This document shows positions 6,074-33,261 of a stretch of 34,058 nucleotides of DNA, piece by piece. The notes beneath the pieces are model-generated. The model searched no databases and had not been told where the DNA came from. It saw only the letters and a list, made by a program, of their open reading frames with translations. Numbering within the stretch: the first letter of the stretch is position 1; each line of letters opens with the position of its first letter. The stretch is from Desulfobulbaceae bacterium (lineage in GTDB: Bacteria; Desulfobacterota; Desulfobulbia; Desulfobulbales; Desulfobulbaceae): NCBI GenBank assembly GCA_019163135.1, contig JAFLKR010000201.1, positions 1 to 34,058 of the forward strand. Direction: 5' to 3'. A program made the translations under genes and the position numbers.

Positions 6074-6832
6074 TCAGATGGACGGGCGGTTGCAAAGAGG
6101 ACAGGCTTGCATGCGCATGGGTTTTTCCAGGTGGCATTCCTCGAGCAATTGGTCGTTTTGGAATATTTCGGTGGTTGGCCCGTCGGCCATAATCTGGCCT
6201 TCGCGGATAACGATGGTCCGGCTACAGAGATCAAGCACCATGTCGAGATCATGGGTGGCGATGATCTTGGTGTGTTGAAACCCTGCCAGTAATTCGATCA
6301 GGGTCCGGCGGGCGCGCGGATCAAGATTTGACGACGGTTCATCCATGACCAGAATGTCGGGAGACATCGCCAGCACAGTGGCGATGGAGACCGCCCGTTT
6401 TTCGCCGCCGGACAGTTTGTAGGGCGGGCGTTCCCGGAGATGTTCCACTCCAACCCGCATCAAGGCTTTCTGCACACGCTGCTCAACCTCCTCCAAAGGC
6501 AGCCCCAGGTTCAGTGGACCGAAGGCGACATCTTCATAGACGGTCGGCATGAACAACTGGTCGTCCGGATCCTGGAAAATCATTCCGACCGTCCGGCGGA
6601 TGTCTCTCAGCGTTTCCCTCGTCAGGGGGAAATCACCGATGCGTACCGTCCCGCTCTGGGGGGTAAGATAGCCGTTCAGGTGCAGCAGCAAAGTCGATTT
6701 CCCGGCCCCATTAGCACCGACGACCGCCACCGATTCGCCATGATGGATTCGAAAGGAGATGCCGCGAACGGCTGCGGTCCCGTCTGGATAGGTGTGGGTC
6801 AGGTTCTGGACTTCGACGATGTGATGGCTCAT
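6074..6832 (-). CDS. Nickel/cobalt ECF transporter ATPase (NikO/CbiO)
   Basis: A 252-residue ABC ATPase energising an energy-coupling-factor metal transporter at the inner membrane. Walker A is GANGAGKST (residues 39-47), followed by Q-loop IFQDPDDQLF, signature LSGGEKRAV, Walker B ILVMDEPSSNLDP and switch ATHD. The Q-loop sequence is typical of CbiO/EcfA proteins. The extreme C terminus ends in a CPLC tetrad, a possible extra metal or redox site not needed for ATPase function. It lies 10 bases downstream of the Q subunit. Nickel rather than cobalt is inferred only from the NikR-like operator upstream of the operon. Confidence 0.92.
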   Translation of the reverse strand: MSHHIVEVQNLTHTYPDGTAAVRGISFRIHHGESVAVVGANGAGKSTLLLHLNGYLTPQSGTVRIGDFPLTRETLRDIRRTVGMIFQDPDDQLFMPTVYEDVAFGPLNLGLPLEEVEQRVQKALMRVGVEHLRERPPYKLSGGEKRAVSIATVLAMSPDILVMDEPSSNLDPRARRTLIELLAGFQHTKIIATHDLDMVLDLCSRTIVIREGQIMADGPTTEIFQNDQLLEECHLEKPMRMQACPLCNRPSI

Positions 6833-6842
6833 TGCATGCGGC

Positions 6843-7655
6843 TCATTTTACAAATCCGGTGAGTAACTGGCCCAGCAGCAACGAGCAATCGTATCGGCGT
6901 ATGGTGATGAGGATGAGGCAGGAGAGGAAAAACAGCAGCATATTCCGAATGGTGAACTGAGGGGCTCGTCGGGTGCGGATCGTGCCATCGAAACCACGGC
7001 AGAGCATGGCCAGGTGGATGCGCTGGCCACGATCCAGGGTGCGCAGCAGCAGCCCGCCAATTAGGTGGCCAAAGGTTTTCATGTCGGTGCCGCGTCCTTG
7101 AAAGGACCGAAGTGCCCTGGCTCGGTACATCCGCTGCCCTTCGTCCATCAGCACAAAAATATAGCGGTAGAGCAGCAGCAACTGGACCGCAAAGATTTTG
7201 GGCATGCCCATCTTTTCCATGGCCATGCAGACCCCGCTGAAGCCGGTGGTTGCAATCAGGATCAGCATGGCGCCGACCGTCAGGCAGAAGCGCAGCAGAA
7301 TGGAAAGAAACGACAGCCAGCCGCCTGATACTGGAAGGGGGCCGAGATACAGGAGGGTCTGCTGGTCAAGAAAAGGATTAAACATGCCCAGCAGGATGGC
7401 AAAAGGGGAAACCAAGGCCAGTTTTTTCAGGATAAAGTGAGCCGGTATGCCGCCTAGGCCCATGAGCAGGCTGAGGATCAGCACAAATGGCAGCATCGCG
7501 CCAATAACGTATTTGTCGAAGGAAACGACACAGATCACAAATACAGCCGCAGTCAGCACTTTGATCCGGGGATCAAGCCGGTGAATGATCGAATCTCCGG
7601 TCGCCAGAGTGTCGAGATAGCCCAGATCAATGAAAGCGGTATCGATTTTGGCCAT
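6843..7655 (-). CDS. Nickel/cobalt ECF transporter transmembrane subunit (NikQ/CbiQ)
   Basis: The transmembrane T component of the ECF transporter, 270 residues from the chosen ATG. It has several hydrophobic segments (residues around 30-70, 95-145 and 230-255). The cytoplasmic coupling region contains the family-type RMYRARALRSFQGR and LAMLCRGFDG. The frame is open 19 codons further upstream, but the ATG at 7655 has GGGAGAGGA about ten bases in front of it and gives the usual N terminus (MAKIDTAFIDL). It sits between the M subunit and the ATPase in one minus-strand operon. Confidence 0.92.
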   Translation of the reverse strand: MAKIDTAFIDLGYLDTLATGDSIIHRLDPRIKVLTAAVFVICVVSFDKYVIGAMLPFVLILSLLMGLGGIPAHFILKKLALVSPFAILLGMFNPFLDQQTLLYLGPLPVSGGWLSFLSILLRFCLTVGAMLILIATTGFSGVCMAMEKMGMPKIFAVQLLLLYRYIFVLMDEGQRMYRARALRSFQGRGTDMKTFGHLIGGLLLRTLDRGQRIHLAMLCRGFDGTIRTRRAPQFTIRNMLLFFLSCLILITIRRYDCSLLLGQLLTGFVK

Positions 7656-7747
7656 ACGTGAGAATCCTCTCCCAGATGTTTTCCCCAAAAAACAGCGATA
7701 GTACGAGATCACACTGCCCTGGAAATGCAGCTGTCAGCAACAATCGG

Positions 7748-8785
7748 CTACATGATCTGGCGGCGATTCCTAAACAAAAAGCCGATGGCGATCGCAAGAA
7801 TCAGCGTCAGCCCACCACCGACCAGGCCAGATACCGTGGTGCCTTTATCCACGGTCAGCCAGGATGGCGGGGTGGTTTCTTGAGTAGCCGGTTCGTGTTC
7901 GTTGGTCCCGAAAGAATAGTCAGGCAGGAAAGCGGTTTTGGCTTGCAAATCGGCGAGGAGATGATGGATGCCATTTTCCGGCGCTTCCAGTTCTTCCTGG
8001 CCCGAGGTTTTTGCCATCGCCCATTCCAGACCATCGGGGAACGAACTGGCCAACCCGGACAACACCCCTCCGGTTATAGCCGCTGCCAGCGCGAAGCCTG
8101 TCAGTACTTTAGTGAGAGACAAGTTGCCCAGCGGGCGTAAAGTTGCGGAAAATTCGAGAATCTCCGGGCGGGCCTTCCAGACAAACGAAACCACGGCCGT
8201 GGTGACCAGGCCTTCAACCAATCCAATGGCAAGATGAATCGGCAGCATTGCCGCGAGAAAAGCATGAAGCGGCAACTCCGAGATGCCGGAAAGGACCGTT
8301 TCAAACACCACCCCCAGAGCTCCCAGTTGCAATCCGACGATTCCGGCGAGAGTGGCGCCGACGGCTATGCGCATCGGACTTTTTCTGTCCCCGGCGATTG
8401 GTTTGTAGATCAAGGGATAGGCGATAAAACAGGGAAAGACGCCGAGATTAAAAATATTGCATCCCAGGGCCAGCAAGCCTCCATCGGCAAAAAACAGGGA
8501 CTGCACCGTCAGGACCGAGGCAATGGTCAGAAGGGCCGCATGTGGGCCAAGCAGTATGGCCAGAATCATGCCTCCGCCAAGGTGACCGGAAGAGCCTGTG
8601 GCCGGGATGGTAAAGTTGATCATCTGGGCGGCAAAGATGAAGGCGCCAAGCACCCCCATCAGTGGAACTTTTCGGTCATCAAGATCCCGCTGGACTTTTT
8701 TGGCGCAGAAAGCGATGGTTCCGGCGGTGGCTGCCCACAAGGTGCCGCCAACAGCGGGTGAAAGAAGTGCGTCGGCCATGTGCAT
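7748..8785 (-). CDS. Nickel/cobalt ECF substrate-binding subunit, NikM fused to PDGLE (NikN-like) domain
   Basis: A 345-residue integral membrane protein. The N terminus MHMADALLSP provides Met1 and His2, and GSSGHLGGG provides His68. These correspond to the ligands of the square-planar metal site in NikM/CbiM. Multiple hydrophobic helices follow. Near residues 250-254 the sequence PDGLE marks the NikN/CbiN-like domain, and the protein ends with one more membrane helix (about residues 318-337) and a basic tail, so M and N functions are fused. The start is fixed by AGAGGAGA seven bases upstream and by the need for His at position 2. It is the first gene of the nikMN-Q-O operon. Confidence 0.93.
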   Translation of the reverse strand: MHMADALLSPAVGGTLWAATAGTIAFCAKKVQRDLDDRKVPLMGVLGAFIFAAQMINFTIPATGSSGHLGGGMILAILLGPHAALLTIASVLTVQSLFFADGGLLALGCNIFNLGVFPCFIAYPLIYKPIAGDRKSPMRIAVGATLAGIVGLQLGALGVVFETVLSGISELPLHAFLAAMLPIHLAIGLVEGLVTTAVVSFVWKARPEILEFSATLRPLGNLSLTKVLTGFALAAAITGGVLSGLASSFPDGLEWAMAKTSGQEELEAPENGIHHLLADLQAKTAFLPDYSFGTNEHEPATQETTPPSWLTVDKGTTVSGLVGGGLTLILAIAIGFLFRNRRQIM

Positions 8786-16642: not shown

Positions 16643-16740
16643 GGAAGTGGAAAGGGCTCTGGTGGCTCTCCCGGACTTCAAATCCGGTGTGCTGGGTGAA
16701 TAGCCCGGCTGGTGGGTTCGATTCCCATGCACTTCCGCCA
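16643..16740 (+). tRNA. selC: tRNA-Sec (anticodon TCA), island attachment site
   Basis: A 98-base tRNA with the features of selenocysteine tRNA. It has an extended acceptor stem (GGAAGTGG against GCACTTCC, last pair mismatched), anticodon loop CTTCAAA (TCA, reads UGA), a long variable arm (GCTGGG/CCCGGC stem), T loop TTCGATT, discriminator G and encoded CCA ending at 16740. It shows that the organism makes selenoproteins. A P4-type integrase gene begins 396 bases downstream in the same direction, the usual layout when an island has inserted into the 3' end of the tRNA gene. Confidence 0.96.
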
Positions 16741-16853
16741 CACTTCATTCATCAATATTCAGTCTCGTCCAGTCCAACGCGTGTAATCCCAGAGTTTTCT
16801 GCTTTTAACGTCCGCTGCAGTCCGGATAAATGTCGTTGACATTCTCACGATAA

Positions 16854-16996
16854 ACACGGTGTCAAATACGGTATCGACTAATCGGTGATTTCTGATACCG
16901 TGTTTCCGTCTCGCTGCAATTCTACAGGCGTTTCCAAGGATTGTCAGCGTAAGATACGGTATCACTTCCAAGAATAGCTCCAAGCCGATACCGTGC
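16854..16996. repeat. Five copies of ATACGGTATC-type motif between selC and integrase
   Basis: Copies are ACACGGTGTC (16854-16863), ATACGGTATC (16866-16875), its reverse complement form GATACCGTGT (16894-16903), ATACGGTATC (16954-16963) and GATACCGTGC (16987-16996). The mixed orientation and position in the attachment arm suggest arm-type binding sites of the integrase or operators of a recombination-directionality factor. Apart from these, the gene-free stretch 16741-17136 shows nothing else I can name. Confidence 0.6.
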
Positions 16997-17136
16997 AGAT
17001 TTGCTATTTATTATCAAGTGACGACAAATCGTTAAAGTTTATCACTTTGCAAGTCTGGTCGTGTTGGATATACATATGTGGCCGTGCAAGGCCTTATCTC
17101 TTGTTAGTTGCACTTTAAAACGTAGGAGATGTCGAT

Positions 17137-18361
17137 ATGGCACAACTCACAGATATCGCAATTCGTAATGCTAAACCAAAAGAAAAGCCATACAAACTCT
17201 CGGATGCTGGACTATACCTACTTGTCATGCCGAACGGCAAGAGGTTTTTTCGATGGGATTTTAAATTTGAGGGAAAGCGAAAGACTTTGGCCATTGGCCA
17301 GTACCCAGACACGAGCCTAAAAGAAGCAACCGCGATTTTGGCCAAGGCAAAAGAACAACTGGCTCAAGGTATTGCTCCTAAGGCAATGAGCAATGCAGGG
17401 AAGCGAAGGGAAGAAGCACGGCAGATGGAAGGTGGTGCGACATTTGAGAATATAGCCTTTGAATGGCATAAGAGATTTCTTGACCAATGGAAACCTGACT
17501 CAGATGAGCGCATTATCAGTTATTTGAAAAAAGACATTTATTCGTACATTGGCAAGCATCAGATTGCCGACATCAAGGCCCCAGATATCTTAATGGTGCT
17601 GCGCAGGGCGGAAAGTCGTGGTGTGCTCCATACTGCGCATAGATTGCGTACTGTTATCGGTCAAGTGATGCGCTATGGGGTTGCGGCCGTTGTGAGCGAG
17701 ATCCGCCGGTGATCTAAAGGGTGCCCTTCCAGCCTTCAAGACAACTCGCCGGGCTGCCGTTACCAACCCGATCGAGGTTGGGCACTTGTTGAGGATGCTA
17801 GACAATTACACTGGCTCGTTTGTCGTGGCATGCGCCCTTAAATTGTTACCTTTACTCTTTTGTCGACCCGGGGAGCTCAGAAATATGACGTGGGTGGCTA
17901 TGAATTTTGAAAAAGTAGAGTGGGGCTACCTCGTTACGAAAACTCAAACTCCGCACATTGTCCCGCTTGCAACCCAAGCAATCGACATCCTAAGGGAACG
18001 CCACCTTGTGACCGGGAATACTCCTTACGTTTTCCCCTCGCAGAGAAGCAACAATCGACCCATGAGTGACATGGCTATTAATGCTGCAATGAAAAGAATG
18101 GGCATTGACGCAACGCAGGAGATCACCGGCCACGGTTGGCGGGCGGTCGGAAGGACAATTCTGGACGAGGTGCTAGGTGTCCGCCCTGACTTTATAGAGC
18201 ACCAATTAGCACGCACTGTTCGCGATCCGTTGGGCAGGGCATACAATAGGACTGCCCATCTTCCCGAAAGGAAGAAAATGATGTAGGATTGGGCTGACTA
18301 TCTGGAACGACTCAAGGCTGGTGGAAAAAATAATATTGTGCCGATCCGAGTTGCAGCATGA
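17137..18361 (+). pseudogene. P4-type tyrosine integrase, broken by frameshifts and a nonsense codon
   Basis: The reconstructed product is about 408 residues, normal for P4-family prophage integrases. The N-terminal arm-binding domain starts MAQLTDIAIRNAKPKEKPYKL with AGGAG upstream. The catalytic domain has FCRPGELR, the box ITGHGWRAVGRTILDE, and a C terminus ending YNRTAHLPERKKMM. Around 17688 and 17707 the reading frame slips twice, each consistent with loss of one base: VAA-G-CERDP-AGDLKGALP is recovered by reading frame 1, then 3, then 2. At 18284-18286 a TAG replaces the expected glutamine codon; downstream the frame continues DWADYLERLKAGG to a TGA at 18359. The integrase is therefore inactive unless the lesions are sequence errors. 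Confidence 0.88.
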
Positions 18362-20348: not shown

Positions 20349-20349
20349 A
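20328..20349 (+). repeat. Tandem 11-bp duplication carrying two ribosome binding sites
   Basis: GAGGCACCTTA occurs twice without a gap (20328-20338 and 20339-20349). The last base of the second copy is the A of the ATG of the HU-like gene. Each copy contains a GAGG Shine-Dalgarno core, the nearer one well placed for initiation. Confidence 0.8.
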
Positions 20350-20636
20350 TGAACAAATCAGAATTGATAGAAGCACTCGCTCAAGATCACGGTTTGCCTA
20401 CCAAAACAGCCGCATCCATTGTGAACACGATTCTGGAGACAATGATCGAGACGCTGGTGAGACGCGATAATATCGAACTGCGCGGTTTCGGAAGCTTCAC
20501 CGTGAGGGAATATGAGACGTATACGGGAAGAAATCCAAAGACTGGCGCTCCGATATTGGTAAAGCCTAAAAAATTACCTTTCTTTAAAGTCGGCAAGGAA
20601 CTTCGCGAATCGATTGATGCAAATCGAGGGAAATGA
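20349..20636 (+). CDS. HU/IHF family DNA-binding protein
   Basis: A 95-residue nucleoid-type protein. MNKSELIEALAQDHGL and the dimerisation helices are followed by IELRGFGSFTVREYETYTGRNPKTG, the beta-arm with proline, and KKLPFFKVGKELRESID. The RNPKTG arm is diagnostic. Whether it is an HU or an IHF subunit cannot be decided from sequence alone. It lies inside the selC island and could serve as the accessory DNA-bending factor for site-specific recombination, or act as an island-encoded nucleoid protein. Confidence 0.93.
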   Translation: MNKSELIEALAQDHGLPTKTAASIVNTILETMIETLVRRDNIELRGFGSFTVREYETYTGRNPKTGAPILVKPKKLPFFKVGKELRESIDANRGK

Positions 20637-21492: not shown

Positions 21493-21792
21493 TTACGATA
21501 ACTTGTCCTGCACACTCCGCATCTTGTCCGCCATGGTCTGGTCGCGATCTGTGCGGGTGCCTAGCTTGATGGTGGTGGTGATCCGGGGGGCTCCTATCTC
21601 GTGCACCCGCAGGTGACACTGTTTGACCGCGGCCATTACCGTATCCCAGTCGCCCTCGATATTGGTGCCGTAGGCATGCAGTTGCGATTTGAGTCCGGCG
21701 GTCTGCAAAATCCGGTGACACTCGGCCACGTAGGCGGAAACGCTCACGCCGACACCAAGCGGCACGATACACAGATCCATGATTACTTGCAT
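21493..21792 (-). CDS. MTH1187 family thiamine-binding protein (UPF0045)
   Basis: A 99-residue protein of the MTH1187/YkoF-like fold, proteins that bind thiamine or hydroxymethylpyrimidine in the cytoplasm. The core VIMDLCIVPLGVGVSVSAYVAECHRIL, the motif HAYGTNIEGDWDTVMAAVKQCH and the end RITTTIKLGTRTD match the family. AAGGAGGAGCAA directly precedes the ATG at 21792, which excludes the longer open frame. It is transcribed away from the REC-pyruvate kinase gene across a 176-base divergent promoter region. Confidence 0.9.
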   Translation of the reverse strand: MQVIMDLCIVPLGVGVSVSAYVAECHRILQTAGLKSQLHAYGTNIEGDWDTVMAAVKQCHLRVHEIGAPRITTTIKLGTRTDRDQTMADKMRSVQDKLS

Positions 21793-21853: not shown

Positions 21854-21924
21854 AAGCGGACGATCCGCTTGCAAGCAGGGGATTTCTTTTTCCCATTTGT
21901 TCTTTTTTCCACTATGCTACATAG
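21854..21924. promoter_or_regulatory. Two perfect palindromes in the divergent promoter region
   Basis: AAGCGGA-CGA-TCCGCTT (21854-21870) and CTATG-CTA-CATAG (21912-21924) are both perfect inverted repeats with 3-base centres. They lie between the divergent MTH1187 and REC-pyruvate kinase genes, in the zone where promoters and operators are expected. No known regulator motif was recognised. Confidence 0.35.
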
Positions 21925-21968: not shown

Positions 21969-23759
21969 ATGCGTATTCTCATTCTCGAAGACTCCAAGCC
22001 CACCCAGCACCTGTTGCAATCCCGCCTTGAAAAAGCGGGGCTTACGGTCGACACCGCCGATAACGGCCATCAGGGATTTCAGTTGGCGACCTCGAACGCC
22101 TACGATATTATTCTCAGCGACATTCATATGCCGCATTGGGACGGATTTAAGTTCATCGAGGCCATCCAAGTGATCAACCCGCATCTGCCGATCCTGATCA
22201 TCACCTCCTCCCATGATGACCGGCATACTCTCGATCGTCTTGAACACTATCCCAATGTCATCGGCGTGCTTTCCAAACCTTTTGATTTTGAGGCCCTGTT
22301 CAAGCGGTTGGCCAGCATTCCCGCCCAGGCGCACACCAGCGTCAACAAGAAGGCGAAGATTGTCTGTACCATCGGTCCGGCCAGCAGCAGTCCGGAGATG
22401 CTGGGGAAAATGATTCTTGCCGGAATGGATGTGGCCCGGCTTAATTTTTCCCACGGCAGTTACGAGGCCCACGAAGCCACCTTGCTGGCCATTCGTGAGG
22501 CGGAAAAGACCTGGGAAAAACCCATTGCCGTACTCCAGGACCTGTGCGGGCCTAAAATCCGTACCGGCCTGATGGCAGACGGTGCCATTCGGCTCATGGC
22601 GGGCGAGGTCCTCATCATTCAGGCCGAACCGGTGGAAGGGAATGTGGACCGGATTTCGACCATCACCCCGGGGATCCTTGCAGATCTGCGGGTCGGCGAT
22701 CCGGTGCTGCTCGACGACGGTTTGTTGGAATTGCGGGTGGTTAAGGAAGGACGGGAGGAAGTCCACTGCGAGGTGATTGTCGGCGGTACCCTGAAATCGA
22801 GCAAGGGGATCAATCTGCCTTCTACCGCGATCTCGCTGCCGAGCGTCACTGAAAAGGATTGGCGCGATCTCGACTGGGGCCTCAATCATTCGATCGATTA
22901 TGTCGCCCTCTCGTTTGTGCGCACCGCAGAGGAAATCAAGACGATCAAGGACTATATCAAAGCCTCGGGCAAACGCAATCTTAAGGTAGTGGCCAAAATT
23001 GAAAAGCCGGAGGCGGTTCAGAATATCAAAGAGATCGTCGAAATTTCCGATGCGATTATGATTGCCCGCGGCGACATGGGGGTGGAATTACCGGCCGCAA
23101 GGGTGCCTCGCATCCAGGAACGGATTATCCAGTTGTGCTGGGAAATGAATACTCCGGTAATCACCGCCACCCAGATGCTCGACTCCATGACCGTCAACTC
23201 TCGGCCGACCCGGGCGGAAGTCACCGATGTCAGTATGGCGATCAAAGAGGGGACCGATGCGGTAATGCTCTCCCAGGAGACGGCCACCGGGGTCGATCCG
23301 GTCAACGTGGTGCGCACCATGGCCTCGATCATCTGCGAGGAGGAGCGGTATGCGCGCGGCGGTGCCGACCATTATCAGCAACTGATGGAGGATGCGGCCA
23401 TCAATCCCGCTCTTTCCGCGGTCGCCAACCTCAGCACCAATACCGCCACCCTGCTGCTTGACCCGGACGGCACCCTCTATCCGACGCTCTCCAAGTGGAA
23501 CCGCAAGGTGCCGATCCTGCTGGTCACCAAGTCGTTGCATGTCGCTCGCCACGCCGGTCTCTATAATAATATTTTCCCTTTGATCATCCGCGAGGAGTTG
23601 GGCCGTACCGAGATGGTGTTTCGTTCCCTCACCATGGCCAGGGAGTGGGGTTATATTCATACCGGCGAGATTGTGGCTGTGGTCGAGGGCGCGCGCCTGA
23701 CCCGCAGCGGCATCCGCCAGATGGGGGCGGTGCAGGTGCTCCGCGTCGAAAAAGACTGA
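21969..23759 (+). CDS. Response regulator receiver domain fused to pyruvate kinase
   Basis: 596 residues in one uninterrupted frame; the ATG has AAGAGG upstream. Residues 1-115 form a complete REC domain: acidic pair E7/D8, phospho-acceptor D51 in ILSDIHMPHWDG, T79 in LIITSS, and K103 in VLSKPF. After a short linker (about 116-127) a full pyruvate kinase follows. It has AKIVCTIGPAS, R157 and N159 in DVARLNFSHG, the B domain (about 196-290), catalytic K343 in AKIEKPE, metal ligand D369 in ARGDMGVE, T401 in TATQMLDSM and PTRAEVTDV. The C domain is present but has LLLDPDGTLYPTLSK where SG-TA-type phosphosugar-site residues usually stand. Pyruvate kinase makes pyruvate and ATP from PEP. The fusion suggests that His-Asp phosphorelay signalling may tune the enzyme. 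No kinase gene is adjacent. Confidence 0.95.
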   Translation: MRILILEDSKPTQHLLQSRLEKAGLTVDTADNGHQGFQLATSNAYDIILSDIHMPHWDGFKFIEAIQVINPHLPILIITSSHDDRHTLDRLEHYPNVIGVLSKPFDFEALFKRLASIPAQAHTSVNKKAKIVCTIGPASSSPEMLGKMILAGMDVARLNFSHGSYEAHEATLLAIREAEKTWEKPIAVLQDLCGPKIRTGLMADGAIRLMAGEVLIIQAEPVEGNVDRISTITPGILADLRVGDPVLLDDGLLELRVVKEGREEVHCEVIVGGTLKSSKGINLPSTAISLPSVTEKDWRDLDWGLNHSIDYVALSFVRTAEEIKTIKDYIKASGKRNLKVVAKIEKPEAVQNIKEIVEISDAIMIARGDMGVELPAARVPRIQERIIQLCWEMNTPVITATQMLDSMTVNSRPTRAEVTDVSMAIKEGTDAVMLSQETATGVDPVNVVRTMASIICEEERYARGGADHYQQLMEDAAINPALSAVANLSTNTATLLLDPDGTLYPTLSKWNRKVPILLVTKSLHVARHAGLYNNIFPLIIREELGRTEMVFRSLTMAREWGYIHTGEIVAVVEGARLTRSGIRQMGAVQVLRVEKD

Positions 23760-23796: not shown

Positions 23797-25098
23797 TTAC
23801 GACGAAATCGCCAATTGGCGGACCCGGTCCATGCTGGCCTGCAGATCGATGGTGCGCAGTTGCCGGTTATGGACCACCAGCGTCCCGTTGACGATGACCG
23901 TGCGGACATCGGCGGCGCCGGCGCTGTAAACCAGGAGACTCGGGTTGTGAAAGGGCTGGAGGTGGGGCTGCTGCAGATCGATGAGGATCAGATCGGCCGG
24001 ACTGCCGGGTGCCAGCAGGCCGTGACCAAGGCCAAATCCCAGGGCTTCGGCGCCGCCGTTGGTGGCCATTTCCAGGATTCGGGCGGCGGGAACGGCCACC
24101 GGGTCGCAGGGCATAACTTTCTGGACCTTGGCGGCCAAATCCATTTCGCGGAACATATCCAGGCTGTTGTTGGAGGCCGCCCCATCGGTGCCCAGGCCGA
24201 CCCGGATTTGCCGATTGAGCATAGCCAGGAGCGGGGCCCGGCCGGAGGCCAGTTTGAGATGGCTTTGCGGACAGATGACCACCCCCGCCTGCCGTTCTGC
24301 CAGGATGTCGAGGTCGTCATTATCCGCCCAGACACAGTGGACGCAGACCGTGTCCCGGTCAATCAGGCCGAGGGCCTCCAGGTGCCGGATCGGGGTGGCG
24401 GCCATCGGGTCGGCAATCTGGGCGATTTCATCTCGGGTTTCAGCTGCATGGATGAAAAAGGGGGCTTGGAAGTGGCGAGTCAGCTCCTTGGCCCGGCGCA
24501 GGGTCTGCGGAGAGCAGGTATAGGGCGAGTGGGCAAAGACTGCCGGGGTGATCAGCGGATCGCGACCTTGCCAGTGTTCAAGAAAGCGGTGCGCGGCCTC
24601 GATGTTCCTGGCCGGATCGGGCACGCCCGGCGCCGGAAAATCGATGACAGCCTGGGCGGCTACGCAACGGATGCCGGTATCGGCACAGGCGCGGGCCACC
24701 TCGTCCTCGAAAAAATAACCGTCGGCCACTGTGGTAATCCCCCCCAGCAGCATCTCGGCGACGGCCAGTTGGGCGCAGGCATAGACCATATCAGGATTAA
24801 CCTGCCTGGCCTCGGCTGGAAAAATATGGTCCTGGAGCCAGGTGGCCAGGGCGAGGTCGTCGGCTAACCCTCGGAACATGGTCATGGGCGCATGGCAATG
24901 GCCGTTGACCAGGCCGGGCATGGCCAACTGTCCATGTCCGTCTATGCGTGTCCCGGTGGCGTCCGACGGGCATTCCGCCATCGGGCCAAGCCCGGCGATC
25001 CGACCAGCGTTGATCGCGATAAATCCGGAGGAGATCAGGGCTTCCTCGCCGGGGGCGGGAAGCAGGGTGCAGTCGGTTATCAGGATGTCGAATTTCAT
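23797..25098 (-). CDS. Amidohydrolase, MTA/SAH (5-methylthioadenosine/S-adenosylhomocysteine) deaminase type
   Basis: A 433-residue TIM-barrel amidohydrolase. Metal ligands lie in GLVNGHCHAPMTMFRGLADD, a further His in FIHAAET, His in VCVHCVW, and the catalytic Asp in GLGTDGAASNNSLDMF. The combination with LATWLQDHIFPAEA is typical of MtaD-type deaminases that convert MTA or SAH to the inosine forms. Other adenosine-derivative substrates are possible. The ATG at 25098 lacks a clear Shine-Dalgarno sequence. It converges on the REC-pyruvate kinase gene with a 37-base gap. Confidence 0.87.
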   Translation of the reverse strand: MKFDILITDCTLLPAPGEEALISSGFIAINAGRIAGLGPMAECPSDATGTRIDGHGQLAMPGLVNGHCHAPMTMFRGLADDLALATWLQDHIFPAEARQVNPDMVYACAQLAVAEMLLGGITTVADGYFFEDEVARACADTGIRCVAAQAVIDFPAPGVPDPARNIEAAHRFLEHWQGRDPLITPAVFAHSPYTCSPQTLRRAKELTRHFQAPFFIHAAETRDEIAQIADPMAATPIRHLEALGLIDRDTVCVHCVWADNDDLDILAERQAGVVICPQSHLKLASGRAPLLAMLNRQIRVGLGTDGAASNNSLDMFREMDLAAKVQKVMPCDPVAVPAARILEMATNGGAEALGFGLGHGLLAPGSPADLILIDLQQPHLQPFHNPSLLVYSAGAADVRTVIVNGTLVVHNRQLRTIDLQASMDRVRQLAISS

Positions 25099-25259
25099 AA
25101 CTGCTTGCACAAGGCGTTAGAGATAGTGTATCACAGGGAACCGGCCTGACCGGTGGAAACAGCGCAACTATACCCGAATTATCGGGGTAAGCAAGAGGGA
25201 GCCCGCGATATCCGCTCCAATTCCCCTGCCGTTGCCAATACCGAACTATTGAGGATCCC

Positions 25260-32583: not shown

Positions 32584-33261
32584 ATGGAAAAAATAGTACT
32601 GGCTAATTGGAAGGCAAATCTTTCGCCGGAAAAGGCAATGCAATGGTGCGAGGCCTTTGCCGCCGCCTATCAGCCTCGTAGCGGAGTCGAAGTGGTCTTG
32701 GCGGTCCCGGCGTTTTACCTTGAGCGCGTTTTTGAAAAGACCCGGAAGCTTGCCGGAGTTTCCCTGGCCGCCCAAGGGGTCTCCTCGTATCCGCAAGGGA
32801 GCTACACCGGATCGCTGCCGGCGGCATGGTTGCGAGGCATGGTGCAATATACCTTGATCGGTCACCAGGAACGGCGGCGTTATTTCCATGAAACCGTACA
32901 GGATGTGGCCCGGCAGGCCTATGAGTCGCTGGCAGAAGAACTTCAGCCCATCGTTTGTTTGAATCGGGAGTTGCTGGTGTCACAAACCGCCGCCATGGCG
33001 GTAGAGGAACTGGGTAAACTTCTCTGGGCCTACACTCCGGAAACCCCGGTGGCGCTGGAGATGGCCAGGGACCAGACGGAAATCACCGCCACGCTGGCCC
33101 AGATCGCCCGAAAAACCGACAACCGGCCGGTGCTGTACGGCGGCGGCGTGACCGTGGCCAACGGTCGGAGCATCTGGCAGATTCCCGGACTTGCCGGGAT
33201 CATGTTGGGGCAGGGGTGCCTTGACGCCCGCGCCTTTGCCGACCTGATCAGTCATCTGTGA
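32584..33261 (+). CDS. Triosephosphate-isomerase-like protein with altered active site
   Basis: A 225-residue TIM-family barrel with a good AGGAGA before the ATG. ANWKAN gives N8 and K10, YTGSLPAAWL and LIGHQERRRYF give the electrophile H94 and E96, and the phosphate-binding end YGGGVTVAN and GIMLGQGCLDARAF is present. The catalytic-base strand, normally AYEP-WAIGTG, reads AYTPETPVAL: T151 stands where the essential glutamate belongs, and the IGTG of flexible loop 6 is missing. The length (225 rather than about 250) is also short. By family knowledge a TIM without this Glu is almost inactive, so it is either a non-catalytic paralogue, an enzyme with another substrate, or one that uses E153. 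I avoid the symbol tpiA. Confidence 0.78.
   Translation: MEKIVLANWKANLSPEKAMQWCEAFAAAYQPRSGVEVVLAVPAFYLERVFEKTRKLAGVSLAAQGVSSYPQGSYTGSLPAAWLRGMVQYTLIGHQERRRYFHETVQDVARQAYESLAEELQPIVCLNRELLVSQTAAMAVEELGKLLWAYTPETPVALEMARDQTEITATLAQIARKTDNRPVLYGGGVTVANGRSIWQIPGLAGIMLGQGCLDARAFADLISHL

Follow-up and report, generated by a model that had tools for sequence, protein, structure and literature searches.

The window, by which we mean the whole stretch of 34,058 nucleotides that was analysed (contig JAFLKR010000201.1 of the Desulfobulbaceae bacterium assembly GCA_019163135.1), carries on its forward strand a gene in which a response regulator receiver domain (REC) is joined to a pyruvate kinase (PK). 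The gene and its product are called REC-PK below, and its parts are as follows (G and L numbers are our handles for genomes and loci).

21969..23759, + strand: REC-PK gene, 596 amino acids, ATG start and TGA stop, with the same start codon in 32 relatives
21969..22322, + strand: REC domain, residues 1-118 (Pfam match 3-114), with the quintet E7, D8, D51, T79 and K103
22119..22121, + strand: codon of D51, predicted to accept the phosphoryl group; 35 of 36 proteins have D here and G017 has N
22323..22346, + strand: short linker, residues 119-126, taken to be the stretch between both domains
22347..23312, + strand: A and B domains of PK (barrel), residues 127-448, with the catalytic residues
23460..23480, + strand: remodelled sugar-phosphate effector loop, residues 498-504 (DPDGTLY)
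23487..23711, + strand: PK C domain, PK_C match, residues 507-581

Translation of the forward strand from 21969 to 23759 gives 596 residues with zero internal stops. Mechanically the open reading frame (ORF) can be extended 5′ to a TTG at 21897, yet the first codon is ATG in 32 of the 32 relatives extracted, and AGAGG lies five bases 5′ of the ATG. Pfam matches were obtained for Response_reg (PF00072) at residues 3-114 with 78.5 bits against a cut-off of 30.2, for PK (PF00224) at residues 127-448 with 365 bits, and for PK_C (PF02887) at residues 507-581 with 45.1 bits against a cut-off of 28, the last over profile positions 32-106 of 114; the first 31 of these 114 positions have no match in REC-PK. 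The PK part is also recognised as TIGR01064 pyruvate kinase in NCBIfam (490 bits). Ordinary PKs make up the closest solved structures, and the best-matched stretch begins at residue 112 or beyond in all 60 chains listed, so none of these 60 spans REC and PK jointly. An earlier note on this DNA, made from the letters alone, had described one 596-codon frame fusing REC to PK, with the five receiver residues all kept and the PK complete with its catalytic motifs. Translation and Pfam bear out the fusion, the quintet is as the note gave it, and on the PK side R157, N159, S161, D191, R198, K279, K343, E345, D369 and T401 were found. These residues have catalytic roles in PKs, and the catalytic residues examined are invariant in all aligned rows covering them.

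REC-PK was found in 8 of 23 genomes of the genus, 12 of 73 of the family and at least 36 of 257 of the class, spread over four families and 19 genera (12 genomes in family f1, 9 in f6, 10 in f13 and 5 in f15). The earlier note had proposed a check of how far the domain architecture extends, and the fusion of REC with PK proves to be carried by many relatives. Among the 36, the gene of G015 is split over two contigs, those of G018, G019 and G105 end at contig ends, and that of G232 has an in-frame TAG. The number is a lower bound, the REC-PK of L002 (Desulfobulbus rhabdoformis) being additional to it. A homologue 85% identical to the window protein belongs to Desulfobulbus sp. GS12 644. A tree was built from the PK parts of 31 fused and 25 unfused sequences; G232 was left out of it for its in-frame TAG, as were G105 and three partial sequences (G015, G018 and G019). 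All fused sequences fall on one side of a branch with support 100/100, and the stem of the fused clade measures 1.67 changes per site under a midpoint root. Families f1 and f15 each form one group, and f6 and f13 do not. The identity to the PK part of the window protein is 61-100% for fused sequences, and for unfused ones it does not exceed about 42% along the complete PK or about 53% when only the barrel is compared. These relationships fit a single fusion that preceded the split of the families and was lost afterwards in some lineages, and some transfer between lineages may also have occurred.

That the gene is an assembly artefact or a chance read-through of two genes is a reading to which we give practically no weight. 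Nothing in the window gene speaks for it, the point in its favour being the TAG of the relative G232, and the same junction recurs in proteins of 593-598 amino acids in the relatives read to their ends, from four families and with single-contig genomes included. The same architecture in 36 genomes together with the single clade rules out an artefact or a frameshift. The earlier note had named a stop or frameshift between the domains, or absence of the fusion from all close relatives, as grounds for giving it up, and neither was found. In G232 (L088) the in-frame TAG interrupts an otherwise full-length gene, and this genome has two further PKs; the copy may be decaying or mis-assembled.

Among the matches listed for a phylum sample of 395 genomes (E <=1e-100), five were full-length, all from this order. 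Independent fusions elsewhere in the phylum were looked for in 10 rows with long frames or low query starts and were rejected, with zero REC hits in the PK frames; the N-terminal extensions of these ten rows look like read-through. G452 and G282 were likewise rejected as fusions, as the match into REC crosses a stop and a separate upstream hybrid kinase is present instead. Other rows with a query start near 80-110 (G397, G421, G509, G333 and others) lie outside the scope of this rejection. Coverage of other phyla consisted of two unsystematic scans: a match was present in 3713 plasmid records, and in each of the 20 listed it begins at residue 90 or beyond, while the one scan of genome contigs recovered close relatives only.

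In the PK barrel, K196 and L192 match by motif Lys117 and Leu113 of rabbit muscle PK, a pattern that, in the accessible sections of PMC4284704 and PMC8835810, marks K+-independent PKs. The C-terminal part sets fused and unfused rows apart. At position 498 all 32 fused rows have D and all 25 unfused rows T or S, position 503 is L, I, F or M (32/32) where T stands in 22 of 25 unfused rows, position 504 is Y or F in all 32 against A in 22 of the 25, and position 512 is R throughout the fused rows (32/32) against L or P in the unfused (25/25). These counts refer to 32 fused rows, the four partial rows having no letters there. Residues 498-504 presumably correspond to the loop that holds the phosphate of the effector in other PKs. 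Since glycine 501 is kept in 27 of 32 fused rows and four fused rows have S or T at 500, the effector loop has been remodelled and not deleted; a canonical sugar-phosphate effector loop, which is usual in PKs and not required, is absent from REC-PK. The altered C-domain loop claimed earlier for the window gene is thus real there and extends to the whole clade, in 32 of 32 covered fused rows.

The receiver is also conserved. The positions E/D7, D8, D51, S/T79 and K103 are complete in 34 of the 36 proteins, the exceptions being G017 and G131, the latter with E at position 8, and D51 is kept in 35. Over 14 relatives compared, identity to the window protein falls to 43% in REC and 67% in the PK barrel. 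Besides the active site, near-invariant REC positions are N32, G33, Q35, G36, F37 and A40, and further W57, D58, G59, F62, A65 and V68; with helices named after CheY these stretches should be alpha2 and alpha3, and those assigned by the same analogy to alpha1, alpha4 and alpha5 vary. In eight pairs the ratio of non-synonymous to synonymous substitution rates (dN/dS) ranges from 0.07 to 0.24 in REC and from 0.03 to 0.11 in the barrel, and in three further pairs, two of them with G017, 0.17-0.41 and 0.08-0.20, respectively. From these comparisons of sequence, purifying selection is acting on both domains.

We propose that REC-PK would work as a response regulator encoded by one gene, with an active PK of the K+-independent type as its output domain. 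We infer that a histidine kinase or phosphorelay encoded elsewhere would phosphorylate D51, and that the change in REC would presumably be coupled to the PK domain allosterically, in place of the sugar-phosphate activator whose binding loop was remodelled. The flux from phosphoenolpyruvate (PEP) to pyruvate would then be set at the protein level by an external or redox signal, and such control would curb a futile cycle with the host genome's PEP synthase. That REC phosphorylation switches PK activity, having taken over from sugar-phosphate allostery, is in our judgement the probable reading of the sequences, and activation by phosphorylation would be somewhat likelier than inhibition. To the wider statement, that in this sulfur-cycling order two-component signalling directly switches PK, the receiver replacing sugar-phosphate allostery in what is some species' only PK, so that a phosphorelay sets PEP/pyruvate flux without gene expression, we give about an even chance. 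The interpretation offered in the earlier note is on the whole partly supported.

In 9 of the 36 genomes (G019, G152, G226, G227, G234, G236, G248, G255 and G256) PF00224 matches REC-PK alone. Seven of these have a completeness of at least 90% and come from three families, and a search of these nine with the unfused PK of the window genome recovered no other PK, only REC-PK. The nine are draft assemblies of many contigs in which any single absence is uncertain; seven absences across three families are hard to explain by assembly gaps. In G118 a second, divergent PF00224 match lies in a 354-amino-acid frame. As the only PK found in seven genomes at least 90% complete, REC-PK should therefore be a catalytically working enzyme. 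A degenerate PK serving as a mere scaffold was rejected as an explanation, the catalytic residues being invariant where covered and 9 of 36 genomes having no other PF00224 match. A reversed flow of signal, in which PK senses the PEP/ATP state and REC passes the information to a phosphorelay, is very improbable: REC domains do also act as intermediates of the relay in hybrid kinases, but the PK catalytic residues are kept and 7 genomes of at least 90% completeness yielded no PK besides REC-PK, so that it should be first of all an enzyme. Turning back to a PK governed by its receiver, PK and PEP synthase running together waste ATP and control of PK is therefore expected. The host genome (3.6 Mb, of which the window is contig 25) encodes a PEP synthase-type enzyme of 815 amino acids (PPDK_N, PEP-utilizers and PEP-utilizers_C) and additional PPDK_N proteins. 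In Desulfocapsa sulfexigens these pathways may operate in reverse, as proposed by the authors of PMC3739170 (in the part available). The host genome was also searched for a second, unfused PK, as the earlier note had advised, and two were found close together on its contig C90, one a 473-amino-acid canonical PK and the other a 675-amino-acid PK that matches NCBIfam PRK14725 with 818 bits against a cut-off of 642.

L114:3550-5574 and 6737-8155, both - strand: unfused PK genes, contig C90 of the own genome

The REC-PK gene stands alone between a divergent upstream and a convergent downstream gene, both outside the REC-PK system.

21496..21792, - strand: thiamine-binding protein gene (PF01910), upstream, divergent
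23797..25110, - strand: amidohydrolase gene, downstream, convergent

No histidine kinase was found among the 32 window ORFs scanned with Pfam and none adjoins REC-PK; with 103 HATPase_c matches, kinases are plentiful in the host genome. The regulator had been called an orphan, which holds in the window but not in G230, where two hybrid kinases lie directly upstream of REC-PK on the same strand (L090:9816-14879, -), the first being PAS-HisKA-HATPase-REC and the second, which ends 36 bp before REC-PK, GAF-PAS-HisKA-HATPase-REC. These two are candidates for a cognate phosphorelay. In both genomes read from genus g95, which belongs to another order, 21 bp separate the end of a PAS-HisKA-HATPase-REC kinase gene from the unfused PK gene that follows it.

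L104:2881-6423 and L105:2854-6327, both - strand: hybrid kinase by unfused PK, genomes G452 and G282

The same kinase-PK match pattern is present in G643, giving a total of 3 of 24 genomes searched in g95, and this pairing is a separate, independent link between a two-component system and PK.

It is conceivable that acetyl phosphate and not a dedicated histidine kinase mainly phosphorylates REC. Acetyl phosphate derives from pyruvate, the product of PK, so that REC-PK would then be a self-contained metabolite-sensing PK. An adjacent kinase is indeed not conserved, and acetate kinase was present in 10 of 12 genomes tested, the host genome included, but none was detected in G226 and G255, two genomes that yielded no PK other than REC-PK. 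Also, kinases are abundant, G230 having two directly upstream, and many receivers are phosphorylated only slowly by small molecules. We therefore hold this explanation to be quite improbable and prefer a kinase or phosphorelay as the donor.

Several observations weigh against control of PK through REC phosphorylation. The distribution is patchy, with REC-PK not found in 15 of the 23 genus genomes, some of which are incomplete. The Lys117-type pattern is also found in 24 of 25 unfused rows and is therefore no peculiarity of the fusion. As the fusion appears to have arisen once, the gain of REC and the loop change amount to a single event and give no statistical correlation. Clustering of the genes around REC-PK at 35 loci (32 fetched ones, two at contig ends and that of the window) revealed no neighbour common to all four families; the widest-spread clusters reach 8 genomes each, and those read are ABC transporters and histidine kinases, which are many-copy families. 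ORF calling at these loci was crude, taking the longest frames first, and in G022 an antisense frame displaced REC-PK. The density of kinases near REC-PK is close to background, since the density measured in 10 genomes predicts about 11 HATPase_c genes for flanks that total roughly 454 kb, and a motif filter found 7 kinases there and missed at least those of G162 and G240. It may be noted that orphan response regulators are common and that an adjacent kinase is no strict requirement. The strongest fact on this side is G017 (L075), whose REC has D8E, D51N, T79V and K103E with the fusion and the PK catalytic residues intact, so phosphorylation cannot be required in every lineage. The two pairs with G017 also have raised dN/dS (REC 0.24-0.41, PK 0.16-0.20). 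A REC that is retained in G017 without its phosphorylation site would suit a module for assembly, localisation or partner docking, catalysis not being under phosphorylation control, and the conserved presumed alpha2/alpha3 stretches could form a fixed interface with PK. We consider such a role unlikely as the general explanation, as D51 is kept in 35 of 36 proteins and the full quintet in 34 of 36. For a phosphorylation switch, the phosphosite-less G017 and an unfused paralogue provide natural controls of the role of phosphorylation.

Among known systems, REC-PK resembles the K+-independent Lys117-type PKs, such as VcIIPK of Vibrio cholerae, in fold, catalytic residues and the Lys117/Leu113 equivalents, and differs in having an N-terminal REC and a remodelled effector loop. 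In the available part of PMC5501398, VcIIPK has 0.5% of its activity without its allosteric activator, ribose 5-phosphate. REC on metabolic enzymes is a recognised category with a narrow phyletic distribution in archaea, and REC with pyruvate phosphate dikinase is mentioned from metagenomic samples (both in the accessible part of PMC5847659). REC-PK shares with these response regulators a REC on a metabolic enzyme and a narrow distribution, the difference being that a PK output is not named in section 14 of PMC5847659 as far as that text is available. The PknJ-controlled PK of Mycobacterium tuberculosis (PMC2875399, accessible part) is also a PK as target of protein phosphorylation; there a Ser/Thr kinase acts on PK itself, whereas in REC-PK the predicted site is the built-in receiver aspartate. 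Three PKs are listed for Desulfocapsa sulfexigens (UWK_00304, UWK_00318 and UWK_00709) in the available part of PMC3739170. G113 (2 contigs, 4.0 Mb) carries three PK genes, at 358, 378 and 821 kb, and to judge from their order and spacing and from the genome size UWK_00304 is probably the REC-PK of G113; it is listed as pyruvate kinase, and a receiver domain is not mentioned in that part of PMC3739170. On contig C1 of G113 (377760-380355) an unfused PK match and an acetate kinase match lie close together, in this order, on one strand. Among the papers listed from an incomplete literature, none was on a REC-PK fusion to judge by title or start of abstract, and such a fusion may be mentioned in the Galperin surveys of bacterial REC-enzyme fusions. 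The word pyruvate is absent from the main text, in the portions available, of PMC1183210 and PMC12632262. The architecture had been put forward as undescribed, of which one part stands, as REC-PK itself was not found in this literature, and the other does not, the category of REC on metabolic enzymes being known (PMC5847659, accessible part). At most the PK output is therefore new.

In a conserved family of apparently single origin, a receiver is joined straight to one of the central enzymes of glycolysis, and several genomes yielded no PK besides it. Two-component systems are known mainly for the control of transcription, second messengers and motility. In the present family, signals from the environment may switch central carbon flow at the enzyme itself and not via gene expression, and the family raises the general question of whether aspartate phosphorylation can replace sugar-phosphate allostery in PK.

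Some other features of the window may be mentioned. At 16643-18286 a tRNA-SeC gene is followed by a tyrosine-recombinase integrase whose two parts lie in different frames (17137-17712 and 17786-18286), which looks like the remnant of an element that had integrated at the tRNA. Between this remnant and the REC-PK region, in a gene-poor stretch, an HU/IHF-type DNA-binding protein (PF00216) is encoded at 20349-20636 on the + strand. The glycolytic enzyme triosephosphate isomerase is encoded at 32584-33261 (+), about 9 kb downstream of REC-PK with unrelated genes in between.
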